A stretch of 39,476 nucleotides of DNA. Origin: Chlorobium sp. (lineage in GTDB: Bacteria; Bacteroidota; Chlorobiia; Chlorobiales; Chlorobiaceae). The stretch spans positions 1 through 39,476 of the forward strand of contig SZYA01000079.1 in the NCBI GenBank assembly GCA_005843815.1. Direction: 5' to 3'. Both the position numbers and the translations under genes were made by a program. How positions within the stretch are numbered: position 1 is the first letter of the stretch; every line of letters starts with the position of its first letter. The notes below the pieces were generated by a model. That model ran no database searches. It was given only the letters and a program-made list of their open reading frames with translations, and had not been told where the DNA came from. Of this stretch, positions 29,678-39,352 are shown piece by piece.

Positions 29678-31663
29678 ATGCCAATACATTCCATTTCACT
29701 GACCATTAACCAGCAGGCTGTAACGGCAACACCGGGAACTTCAATTCTTGAAGCCGCAACTGCTGCCGGTATTGTTATTCCGACGCTCTGTTTCAATAAA
29801 TCTCTTGAGGAGACAGGTTCGTGCTGGATGTGCATTGTCGAAATCAAGGGAAAAAATCGCTTTGTGCCCGCATGTGATACACCGGTATCGGAGGGAATGG
29901 TTATCGAAACCGGGAATGAGACGCTTAACGCCATGAGGCGTCAAACTCTTGAGCGAATCGTCGAGGAGCATAGCGGCGATTGCATGGGCCCTTGCGAAAT
30001 CACCTGTCCGGCCGGTTGCGATATTCCCGGTTTTGTTGCGGCAATTGCCAGCAATAACGATGATCGAGCCATAAAGATTATCAAGCAGACGATTCCTCTT
30101 CCCGGTATTCTCGGCAGGGTCTGCCCGGCTCCCTGCGAAGATGAATGCCGGCGACATGGTGTTGACCAACCAGTCTCTATCTGTGCCCTGAAGCGCTATG
30201 CGGCTGACAAGGATTATGGGCAAGCCCACAGATTCATTCCTGAAATTTCTCCAAAAACGGGAAAAAAGGTAGCCATCGTTGGGTCGGGGCCAGCCGGTCT
30301 TACTGCAGCGTGGTTTCTTCTTTGCAATGGGCACGAGGTGACCATAGTTGAAGCGAGTGCGCAGGCTGGCGGGATGATGCGCTACGGTATTCCCCGCTTC
30401 AGGCTACCCGAATCCGTTATCGAGAGCGACATTGCAACGCTGATTGATATGGGGCTTAAGTTTCAGTTCAATACCACGTTCGGTAAGGATGTTACCCTTG
30501 AAACACTTCAGCGCACTTGTGATGCTGTGTTTCTGGCGATTGGTGCGCAAAAGGCGGCCACCATGAATATTCCGGGAGAAGATGAATCCGGAGTGACCAG
30601 CGGCATTGAGTTTCTTCGCAAAGCAGCATCAGGTGATCAGCTTCATCCAGGCAATCAGGTTGTGGTAACCGGCGGCGGCAACACCGCTATTGATGCTGCA
30701 CGGACAGCGATTCGTCTTGGTGCGTCAACGGTTACCATTCTCTATCGCCGATCCAGAAAAGAGATGCCCGCCAACGCTTCCGAAATTCAGGAGGCTCTGG
30801 CAGAAGGCATCACCCTTGTTGAATGGGCGGCACCAACTGCAATCAGGAGCGTGAATGGCGTACTCGAAATAACCGCAATAACCATGCAGCCGGGAGCGGT
30901 CGATGCATCAGGACGGAGAAGGCCAGTGCCGGTCGAAGGGTCGGAGTTCACCATAGCGGCCAACACCATTATCTCGGCTATCGGCCAGCAGATTGACCAC
31001 TCGGTGGCTCATGCAGCGGGCACAGGCACCGGAAAGTACGGCGAACTGCTGGTCAATCCAGCCACCCTGCAATCAGAATCGGTATGGCTGTTTGCCGGGG
31101 GCGATTGTGTTACCGGCACCGATACCGCCATCCGCGCGGTTGAGCAGGGAAAACGTGCGGCGTACGCCATCAATCTTTTTTTATGTGGGGAGAAGGTTGT
31201 TGCTCCGAAAGTTCCCTTTAATTCATCCTACGGTGCCAGAGACGAGGCACCACTGGCCTTTTACCAGCGGAAACAACCTGCGGCCAGAGTTGCTGTGCCA
31301 GAGCTGCCGCCATCAGAGCGCAGTGCGAGCTTCAGTGAAGTGGTCACAGGCTATACAGAAGCTCTGGCCCGCGAAGAGGCGGCGCGATGCCTCCAATGCA
31401 AATGTAATGCCATCAACGACTGCCGTCTTCGGGAACTGGCATCCCGTTATCCGCCCGTTCAGTCCTCACAAAAGCACGAACATCCGGGGTTTTACAAGGC
31501 CGAAAATGCCAACATCTCCATGGAGCGGGAAAAGTGCGTTGACTGTGGTATTTGTGTGCGCATGATCGAAGAGAGCAACGGCAAGGTTGATCTTGTGGTC
31601 ATGACGGAGAGCTGCCCGACCGGGGCACTGTCGGCACCTGCCGGTATGGCGGAGGTGAGATGA
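29678..31663 (+). CDS. Multi-cluster iron-sulfur flavoprotein: 2Fe-2S plus GltD-like NAD(P) oxidoreductase plus 4Fe-4S domains
   Basis: A 661-residue modular redox protein. Residues 1-80 are a NuoG/HoxU-like [2Fe-2S] domain with Cys38, Cys49, Cys52 and Cys66. Residues about 95-175 combine an H-x-x-D-C-like cluster segment (Cys102, 106, 110, 114) with the GltD-type cysteines Cys149, 153 and 157. Next is a GltD-like domain binding FAD (G-S-G-P-A-G at 202-207) and NAD(P)H (G-G-G-N-T-A-I-D near 330-337). The C-terminus adds two cysteine-rich stretches, C-L-Q-C-K-C and C-V-D-C-G-I-C with a later C-P-T-G. It resembles SfrB/NfnB-like electron-transfer proteins, not true glutamate synthase. No partner subunit is adjacent. 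Acceptor and donor are unknown. It is cytoplasmic, with no signal peptide. Confidence 0.85.
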   Translation: MPIHSISLTINQQAVTATPGTSILEAATAAGIVIPTLCFNKSLEETGSCWMCIVEIKGKNRFVPACDTPVSEGMVIETGNETLNAMRRQTLERIVEEHSGDCMGPCEITCPAGCDIPGFVAAIASNNDDRAIKIIKQTIPLPGILGRVCPAPCEDECRRHGVDQPVSICALKRYAADKDYGQAHRFIPEISPKTGKKVAIVGSGPAGLTAAWFLLCNGHEVTIVEASAQAGGMMRYGIPRFRLPESVIESDIATLIDMGLKFQFNTTFGKDVTLETLQRTCDAVFLAIGAQKAATMNIPGEDESGVTSGIEFLRKAASGDQLHPGNQVVVTGGGNTAIDAARTAIRLGASTVTILYRRSRKEMPANASEIQEALAEGITLVEWAAPTAIRSVNGVLEITAITMQPGAVDASGRRRPVPVEGSEFTIAANTIISAIGQQIDHSVAHAAGTGTGKYGELLVNPATLQSESVWLFAGGDCVTGTDTAIRAVEQGKRAAYAINLFLCGEKVVAPKVPFNSSYGARDEAPLAFYQRKQPAARVAVPELPPSERSASFSEVVTGYTEALAREEAARCLQCKCNAINDCRLRELASRYPPVQSSQKHEHPGFYKAENANISMEREKCVDCGICVRMIEESNGKVDLVVMTESCPTGALSAPAGMAEVR

Positions 31664-36982: not shown

Positions 36983-38257
36983 TCAATGCACCGAGCAGGA
37001 GATACAGGGGTCGTATGAGCGCACCACCATTTCACACAGTTTCGTTATCTCGCCATCACTTTTTCCTTCCTTGAGAGCCTGTTGTACCAGTGCTTGCAGA
37101 TCAAGGTGGATATTGGCGTTATTCTGCGTCGTTGGAATGATGCAGTCTGCCTTGGCCACTTTTCCCTGCTCGTCGATTTCAATATGGTGATAGAGGATGC
37201 CGCGTGGTGCTTCGACCGCACCGGTTGCCGCACCGGCTTTTGGTGTGTAAGGGGTTATTATCTCCGCAAGATCACTCTCAAGAAGTGAGTTAACAAGCTC
37301 TTCAGCATCTTCAAGAATATGAACGCACTCAACAAGCTGGGCGATGTTGTTCATAAAGGGGTTGTGACACACCGGCTGGAGCCCGAAGCTTTCGGCGCAC
37401 TCTCTTGCTTTCGGGTGCAGCAGATGGCTGTTGTTGTTAAAGCGAGCCAGGGCTCCTGCCGCCGACGATTCTCGGCTGAGTCTGGTAAACTTCGATGTGG
37501 AAAAATCGCGGGTGTACTCGTTGGTCATCAGGAGATAGTCATTCTCCTCCCGGTCAACGCCGTCTGTTGAGACAAGATGCCCGCCAATTGCGGGATAGGT
37601 TGAGCCGTTTGAGAGTGAGATAAATTCTGTTTCACGGATGAAATCAGGGATGGTGAGGGAGCGGAAAAAAGTGCAGGCGCTCTCAAGCGCCGGTTTTCTC
37701 TCCTGAATCATCGTGCGAAGGTGCAAGAGCTTCTCTTTGTCAGGAGCTTTGCTCAGCCCGCCGACCACGAGGCTGACCGGGTGGGTGCAGCGTCCGGTTG
37801 TCACCGTGCTGATCTCGTTGCCAAGCTCCTTGAGCTGAAGCCCCGCCCTGACCAGATCGGGGTGAGACTGAATCAGCGGCAGAACGCTGGAGGTGCCCGC
37901 AAAATCGGGCGCGATGAGAAAAAAGAGATGCAGTGCATGGCTCTGGAGGGTCTCGCCGTGCATTGCCAGTAACCTTGTCTTCTCTGCCATAACCGGCGGC
38001 TCAATTTCCATGGCCCGTTCAACCGCCCTGATGCTTGCAAGTGAGTGGCTGATGGAGCAGATACCGCAAATTCTTGATGTCAGAAAAGGAACTCGCTCGG
38101 CACTCATTCCCTTGAGCATCACCTCAAAAAAGCGTGGAGTCTCCACAATAGCCCAGCGAGCATCAACAAGCTCGCCATCCCTGATCGTGATCTGGATGTT
38201 GGCGTGCCCTTCCACTCTGGTCAGGTGATGGATATCAAGTGAGTAGTCACGTTTCAT
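36983..38257 (-). CDS. NiFe hydrogenase large subunit (group 3-like, HydA/HyhL type)
   Basis: A 424-residue catalytic subunit carrying the NiFe site. The L1 motif [10 protein letters not shown] supplies Cys64 and Cys67; the L2 motif D-P-C-I-S-C-S-V-H supplies Cys418 and Cys421. The last residue, His424, is directly followed by TGA, so the cleavable C-terminal peptide found in most NiFe hydrogenases is absent. I chose the start at 38257: the frame above it is the end of the small-subunit gene, and M-K-R-D-Y-S is the natural N-terminus. The start overlaps the small-subunit stop by 11 bases, implying translational coupling. Sequence type fits the cytoplasmic sulfhydrogenase-like enzymes described in green sulfur bacteria. 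Confidence 0.93.
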
Positions 38258-38987
38258 CGGTAGCGGCCGGTTCAAAAGCGTTATAAAAGGAAAGTTTTTC
38301 ATGCAGGTCGCTGTCGCTCAGTTTTCTCTCCCTTACCAGTTCAAGAAAGGCGGGCATGTTGAGCTCCTCAGCCGGGCCACGGCACCCCAGACAAGCCGTT
38401 TTGCCGGTAGGGCAGACCGCATTGCATCCAGCGCGGGTAATCGGGCCGAGGCAAATTTCGCCAAGCTCAAAGAGGCAGGTGTTGAGCTGCTGCTTGCACT
38501 CCACACAGACGGGATAGTTCGGAAGCGCAGGCATCGAATCTGTGGCGAGGCTCACGATAATCCGTTCAACCTCCTCCTTGGCAACCGGGCATCCGGGAAT
38601 GGCCAGGTCGACCTTTACGATATCGCTGATTTTCCGCACCGGCAGTGTGTCAACCGCCATATCACCATAGACCTCCCTGACTGTTTCATCCAACTGGAAC
38701 CTGTTCTTCAGGCTGTTGACCCCACCGAAACAGGCGCAGGTGCCGAAAGCCACCAGCACTTTCGCCTGCTGCCGTATCTTCAGCAGCCGTTCCACCTCTT
38801 CCTGGCGGCTGATACTCCCTTCGATAAACGCGATGTCGTAATCGTCATGCTTTTCTGACAAGATCTCCCTGAAGTTTCTGATGTCAAGCAGCTCAAGAAA
38901 GTCGGCGAGTGTTGACTCCCTGTTGGCAAGCTGCAACTGGCACCCTTCGCAGCAGGTAAAGTCAAACGAGGCAATTTTCAGCTTCAT
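38247..38987 (-). CDS. NiFe hydrogenase small subunit (group 3-like, HydD/HyhS type)
   Basis: A 246-residue electron-transfer subunit. The proximal [4Fe-4S] ligands fit the N-terminal C-C-E-G-C (12-16), F-G-T-C-A-C-F-G-G and I-P-G-C-P-V. A second cysteine-rich part from about residue 160 ([11 protein letters not shown], then C-N-A-V-C-P, then C-L-G-C-R-G) suggests further clusters, as in HydD/MvhG-like proteins. No Tat signal, so it is cytoplasmic. The diaphorase partner genes (HydB, HydG type) expected upstream are not in the window: a toxin-antitoxin pair lies there instead, 38 bases away. Confidence 0.92.
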
Positions 38988-39025: not shown

Positions 39026-39352
39026 TTATGATTTTCCGATGATTTGTTTTGGCATCAGTTTGATTTCCAGTTCGCAGCCGACTGCATCGGCGTATTTCCT
39101 CAACGTGGCAACAGAGGGGGTATGCTTGTCGCCGGATTCAAGTCTGGAGATGGCGCTTTTTGACGTGCCAATTTTCAGAGCTACAGCTTCTTGCGTCATA
39201 CCTGATTGCTGGCGGGCGGCAAGGAGTTCCCGTACCAGGGCATACTTCGGCCCAAGAGCCTCATACCCCGCTTCAAATTCTTTATTGACCATCGCCTTGC
39301 GGAGAAATTCTTCGTGATTGTGCTCCACAGGCTGGTATTTCAAATCATCCAT
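39026..39352 (-). CDS. XRE-family antitoxin (HigA-like)
   Basis: A 108-residue protein with a Cro/C1-type helix-turn-helix at about residues 43-97 (R-E-L-L-A-A-R-Q-Q-S-G-M-T-Q-E-A-V-A, then T-S-K-S-A-I-S-R-L-E-S-G). The N-terminal 40 residues would contact the toxin. Its start overlaps the end of the upstream toxin gene by 8 bases, and its AAGGAGG ribosome binding site lies inside that gene. The toxin-first order is typical of higBA. It would neutralise the toxin and repress the operon. Confidence 0.88.
   Translation of the reverse strand: MDDLKYQPVEHNHEEFLRKAMVNKEFEAGYEALGPKYALVRELLAARQQSGMTQEAVALKIGTSKSAISRLESGDKHTPSVATLRKYADAVGCELEIKLMPKQIIGKS

Follow-up and report, generated by a model that had tools for sequence, protein, structure and literature searches.

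A tail-less group 3b [NiFe]-hydrogenase large subunit of Chlorobium and its probable maturation without a protease

Introduction

Can a [NiFe]-hydrogenase large subunit be matured when its reading frame stops at the last residue of its nickel motif? Trimming of a C-terminal tail is the usual maturation step of hydrogenase large subunits, and HypD is required for the NiFe cofactor. In the current model, nickel is inserted first, the tail is cut afterwards, and the site then closes (PMC2865534; PMC7294309). Hartmann et al. (2020) called the importance of the tail ambiguous, and reported groups 2b, 2d, 4c, 4e and 4g as naturally tail-less groups that seem to use the normal maturation machinery (PMC7294309). 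The question is raised here by the hydA gene in a window of Chlorobium DNA (the whole stretch that was analysed, 39,476 nucleotides), whose product ends in DPCISCSVH.

Results

We identified the hydA product as the large subunit of a group 3b [NiFe]-hydrogenase (Table 1). Its best NCBIfam models, ShyA (3.1e-80) and HydA (4.3e-66), matched along nearly the full length, with both scores below the curated (equivalog) cut-offs, and its closest solved relatives are the alpha subunits of Pyrococcus furiosus sulfhydrogenase 1 and of the cytosolic NiFe-hydrogenase 5yxy. The minus-strand frame is open from 38302 and would give 439 aa (36983-38302); because relatives begin at MKRDY, the true start is probably M16. 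The TGA stop occupies 36983-36985 and the nine motif codons 36986-37012, and the protein lacks the extension after DPCxxCxxH that is found in HycI-dependent hydrogenases. A sequence-only reading of this DNA had already noted that the stop follows the motif directly, placing it at 36983-37010, within 2 bases of the motif end; the ORF translation and the C-termini of all 72 Chlorobiaceae copies described below agree with it.

Table 1. Features around hydA in the window
Feature	Position	Strand	Basis
Inverted repeat CAAGGCAGGG...CCCTGCCTTG after the hydA stop, between the convergent hydA and FKBP genes	36873..36909		fold z -2.6
hydA, group 3b [NiFe]-hydrogenase large (alpha) subunit	36983..38257	-	ORF; NCBIfam ShyA/HydA; 424 aa from M16
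C-terminal nickel motif DPCISCSVH, TGA stop directly after	36983..37012	-	ORF translation, orthologue reading
N-terminal nickel motif RICGIC	38057..38074	-	translation, residues 77-82 of the 439-aa ORF
hydD, small (delta) subunit, overlapping hydA	38247..38987	-	NCBIfam HydD 3e-53, ShyD 3.9e-51
HTH antitoxin-like gene directly upstream of hydD	39026..39352	-	
Gp49/HigB-type toxin gene, C-terminal part, cut by the contig end	39345..39476	-	PF05973 3.3e-12

The gene order hydB-hydG-hydD-hydA, a four-gene operon with Fe-S and flavin subunits, is kept in relatives. All four genes are present in this genome, with hydBG on contig C121 and hydDA in the window. On C121, a short ORF begins after hydG, at the contig end, and the right end of the window contains the end of the toxin gene. 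The N-terminal part of the toxin gene probably follows hydG at the end of C121 (L339), so that a toxin-antitoxin pair probably splits hydBGDA between hydG and hydD, across the contig break. The pair is absent from three other Chlorobiaceae loci (L034, L046 and L113), and the hydD beside it lacks about 9 residues at its start. A scan for T-run terminators 3' of hydA found nothing, despite the inverted repeat. Elsewhere in the window (29678-31663) lies a gene for an NADPH-dependent glutamate-synthase-like small subunit with an N-terminal 2Fe-2S domain (PRK12814).

We searched 86 whole genomes of the Chlorobiaceae, of which 80 gave a match, mostly to a full-length HydA. C-termini were read in 72 copies from 70 Chlorobiaceae loci, one locus per genome: 71 end in DPCISCSVH and one in DPCVSCSVH, with the stop directly after in every case. 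L074 and L075, which belong to another family of the Chlorobiales (57-59% identity), have the same tail-less end. The stop directly after the C-terminal residue (His/Arg) of the nickel motif is thus conserved among orthologues, as in the naturally tail-less groups. The sequence-only reading had suggested a mutation at the stop as one explanation, and the window does come from a fragmented draft assembly, so that a recent nonsense mutation or an assembly error might have taken an ordinary C-terminal peptide from this strain alone. It had proposed comparing the 3' ends of orthologues, where a tail still recognisable downstream would point to such a mutation. However, the 72 Chlorobiaceae copies and the two other Chlorobiales all stop at the identical His, no Chlorobiales orthologue that was read has a tail, and the downstream frames hold no remnant resembling the FLKL or LLKVxF tails of tailed relatives. 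The orthologues thus rule out a recent nonsense mutation, and both it and an assembly error can practically be dismissed. The tail-less end of the Chlorobiales HydA is old and fixed.

We also considered whether the stop is recoded or read through, so that some molecules would carry a tail. The window has TGA, as do 53 of 73 distinct Chlorobiales sequences, but 12 have TAG and 8 have TAA; the DNA 3' of the stop is unalike even among close relatives, the next in-frame stop falls at no fixed distance (median 28 codons), and in the window the stop is followed by an inverted repeat. This stop-codon usage and the unconserved downstream frame led us to reject readthrough or a recoded TGA, which has almost nothing to recommend it. 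Separately, an internal TGA flagged in some sequences ('stops_inside 1 TGA') was tried as a selenocysteine codon and rejected, with no motif Cys codon replaced in any Chlorobiales copy that was fetched; judged by ORF length, such stops most likely belong to the non-coding leader included in the query. Second hydA copies, broken or partial, also occur in several Chlorobiaceae genomes (G084:C11:85556-86808, G068:C23:144028, G058 (L061), and G079:C11, C70 and C108).

Tailed forms are common elsewhere in group 3b. In the Bacteroidota outside the Chlorobiales, every group 3b large subunit fetched from the genome survey has a short tail (for example FLKLHVDRT; about 32-38% identity), and the pattern scan for tail-less ends gave one tail-less member, L122 (titled Marinifilum). 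Tailed and tail-less group 3b forms are both present in the Desulfobacterota and Chloroflexota. We then took every fetched locus that extends at least 900 bp beyond hydA: a HycI-type ORF follows the gene within 2.5 kb at 48 of 70 tailed and at 0 of 168 tail-less loci (Fisher 1e-33, uncorrected for kinship). When related rows were paired, about 4 of 6 contrasts between tail and HycI were concordant and none discordant (median p 0.125, with too few pairs for significance).

An endopeptidase gene matching HydA had been proposed as something to look for in the genome. The sole HycI-family gene that we found there is located about 0.7 kb beyond the large-subunit gene of a group 1 uptake hydrogenase (Hup), a subunit with a 15-residue tail, LFDMNGKEITSVTIV. 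Among other Chlorobiaceae, G025, G007, G008, G018 and G045 carry Hup and HycI without HydA; G041 (95% complete) has HydA and gave no match to either Hup or HycI; and none of the three was matched in G022, G026, G029, G030 and G038. In three drafts (G056, G078 and G083), HycI is present and HydA gave the only large-subunit match; the incomplete genomes G061 and G023 gave no HycI match. HycI of the Chlorobiaceae goes with the tailed Hup, not with HydA, and with no HycI-type ORF within 2.5 kb after any of the 168 tail-less genes, HydA is without a dedicated maturation endopeptidase. The suggestion of the sequence-only reading that this enzyme needs no protease, or is fixed in the mature form, gains support from the absence of a matching protease and from the conserved end.

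Beyond the Chlorobiales, we examined 50 genomes with a tail-less enzyme, in which HycI is missing from all 24 CPR genomes and from 5 of the 26 others. These 24 CPR genomes generally show a single hydrogenase by PF00374, the tail-less 3b enzyme. In G441 (L323), a tail-less 3b enzyme occurs with a second hydrogenase that has the motif DPCYGCATH and a long tail, and no HycI-family match was found. A missing HycI match is therefore an imperfect sign.

An enzyme without a tail could also be an enzyme without a metal site. HydA might no longer be catalytic, its cofactor assembly lost, and persist as a structural, sensory or decaying protein. Genetic trimming of the Ralstonia eutropha SH left it without nickel, and that of Escherichia coli Hyd-2 without cofactor (PMC7294309); therefore, in other groups, tail-lessness can mean an empty site. 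The R. eutropha RH and the genetically trimmed MBH were loaded with the NiFe cofactor without a tail (PMC7294309). Of the 24 CPR genomes that carry a tail-less group 3b enzyme (among them those of L118, L129, L131, L137 and L141; G394-G417), which may be incomplete, 16 gave no HypD match. In the Chlorobiales, however, every full-length HydA copy has its two nickel motifs intact, and the hydBGDA order is conserved in relatives. In addition, G041, in which HydA is the only hydrogenase found, keeps hypD, whereas its sister genomes G022 and G026, with no hydrogenase match, lack it. The Hyp machinery therefore appears to be retained in G041 for HydA alone, which suggests a complete NiFe(CN)2CO site in the unprocessed protein. 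In G000, hypA, B, F, C, D and E lie on one contig (HypD by profile, the others read from ORFs). We consider a non-catalytic HydA unlikely.

Next, we asked how the tail-less form is distributed. A scan for the pattern YDPC[IVM]..C..H followed by a stop across 84,980 species genomes gave at least 119 stretches, and the phyla among the matches listed include CPR, Nitrospirota, Desulfobacterota, Myxococcota, Acidobacteriota, Planctomycetota, Spirochaetota and others. Two trees were computed, a 171-row FastTree and a 67-row IQ-TREE under a mixture model. In both, the Chlorobiales enzymes fall in one tail-less clade (48 and 22 rows, respectively) with a support of 100, given as SH-aLRT for the 22 rows of the 67-row tree. 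This clade spans the Nitrospirota, Desulfobacterota, Myxococcota, Acidobacteriota, Planctomycetota and others, and it nests within tailed group 3b, where most enzymes carry 7-9 residues after the motif. The CPR enzymes form a second large tail-less set, separate from it, and smaller tail-less branches (L153 with L218, L199 with L295, L186, L232 and L122) stand amid tailed enzymes. A single clade of all tail-less rows was rejected (AU p 1.2e-48). By parsimony, the tail state needs 8-9 changes on these trees; the sample was enriched for tail-less sequences, and therefore no frequencies are to be read from it. A Val before the final His (SVH) was tried as a marker of tail-lessness and rejected: it is common, and not significant once kinship is allowed for.

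The 8-9 changes alone leave the direction unfixed, and tail-lessness might be ancestral in group 3b, with tails and proteases gained in some lineages. This notion competes solely with the evolutionary part of our explanation, not with protease-free maturation. However, all group 3 outgroup rows in the sample are tailed (24-27 aa), several tail-less rows stand among tailed enzymes with similar xLKVxF/FLKL tails, and losing the tail several times is a simpler history than gaining a similar tail and a protease several times. An ancestral tail-less state thus seems quite improbable, and we infer that loss was the direction of change.

Discussion

We propose, with a confidence of roughly 85%, that HydA is a stable group 3b enzyme that needs no protease and is matured by HypA-F alone, its tail having been lost once in its clade and independently in others. 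HydA would be the catalytic subunit of a cytoplasmic NAD(P)-linked [NiFe]-hydrogenase (hydBGDA) and would be synthesised at its mature length; the usual trimming step would therefore not be needed. HypA-F would insert nickel and the Fe(CN)2CO unit in the normal way. The DPCISCSVH segment at the C-terminus would then cover the metal site uncut, so that no maturation endopeptidase would act on HydA and the enzyme would be active without processing. The ancestor of the large clade that includes the Chlorobiales enzymes probably had a short tail (about 7-9 residues) and a HycI-type protease, with the tail lost once in that ancestor and independently elsewhere in group 3b.

Tail-less large subunits are already known, and group 3b is absent from the published list of tail-less groups (PMC7294309). 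What appears to be new is that tail-lessness is stable, widespread and repeatedly derived in the catalytic group 3b, with no adjacent protease, for which we found no prior description; our search for reports of tail-less group 3b enzymes covered mostly the open literature, and an earlier remark may exist. The tail-less form has been inherited across many bacterial phyla. A tentative possibility is that the tail checkpoint and its protease were discarded together several times in one catalytic group, and that another, tail-independent checkpoint evolved or was always enough. On that same tentative idea, such a checkpoint might reside in the N-terminus, in proofreading by the small subunit or in Hyp docking. 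Since group 3b provides natural near-neighbours with and without a tail, it would allow a clean test of tail function by swap or removal. A protease-free NADP-linked hydrogenase, if our proposal is true, would also mean one gene fewer for expression elsewhere.

The sequence-only reading had likened HydA to regulatory and CO-linked hydrogenases, a comparison that holds for the mechanism, all being tail-less (PMC7294309), but not for the identity of the enzyme, which is group 3b. The R. eutropha RH (group 2b) has a large subunit naturally without an extension, matured by Hyp proteins (PMC7294309), but it is an H2 sensor of another group, whereas the Chlorobium enzyme is of the hydBGDA type and predicted to be catalytic. 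The CO-dehydrogenase-linked and Ech hydrogenases (groups 4c and 4e, and also 4g) are likewise naturally tail-less (PMC7294309), but they are group 4 complexes.

Closer in kind are the tailed enzymes of group 3b itself. Those of the Desulfobacterota, Chloroflexota and Bacteroidota (for example L239, L235, L294 and L078) belong to the same family as the Chlorobium HydA, and on the tree the near neighbours of the tail-less clade are among the Desulfobacterota and Chloroflexota forms. Most of these relatives have a tail of 7-9 residues (range 7-21), and a HycI-type gene is usually found no more than 2.5 kb from hydA, whereas the Chlorobium HydA has no tail. Tailed forms thus include many 3b relatives from these three phyla and also the characterised one, P. 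furiosus soluble hydrogenase I (PF0894 alpha), which aligns with HydA over the full length, shares the identical DPCISCSVH and is the same kind of four-subunit enzyme. In contrast to HydA, it carries a VVRL tail whose removal by FrxA is required for activity, and no activity was found when both proteases were missing (PMC2865534).
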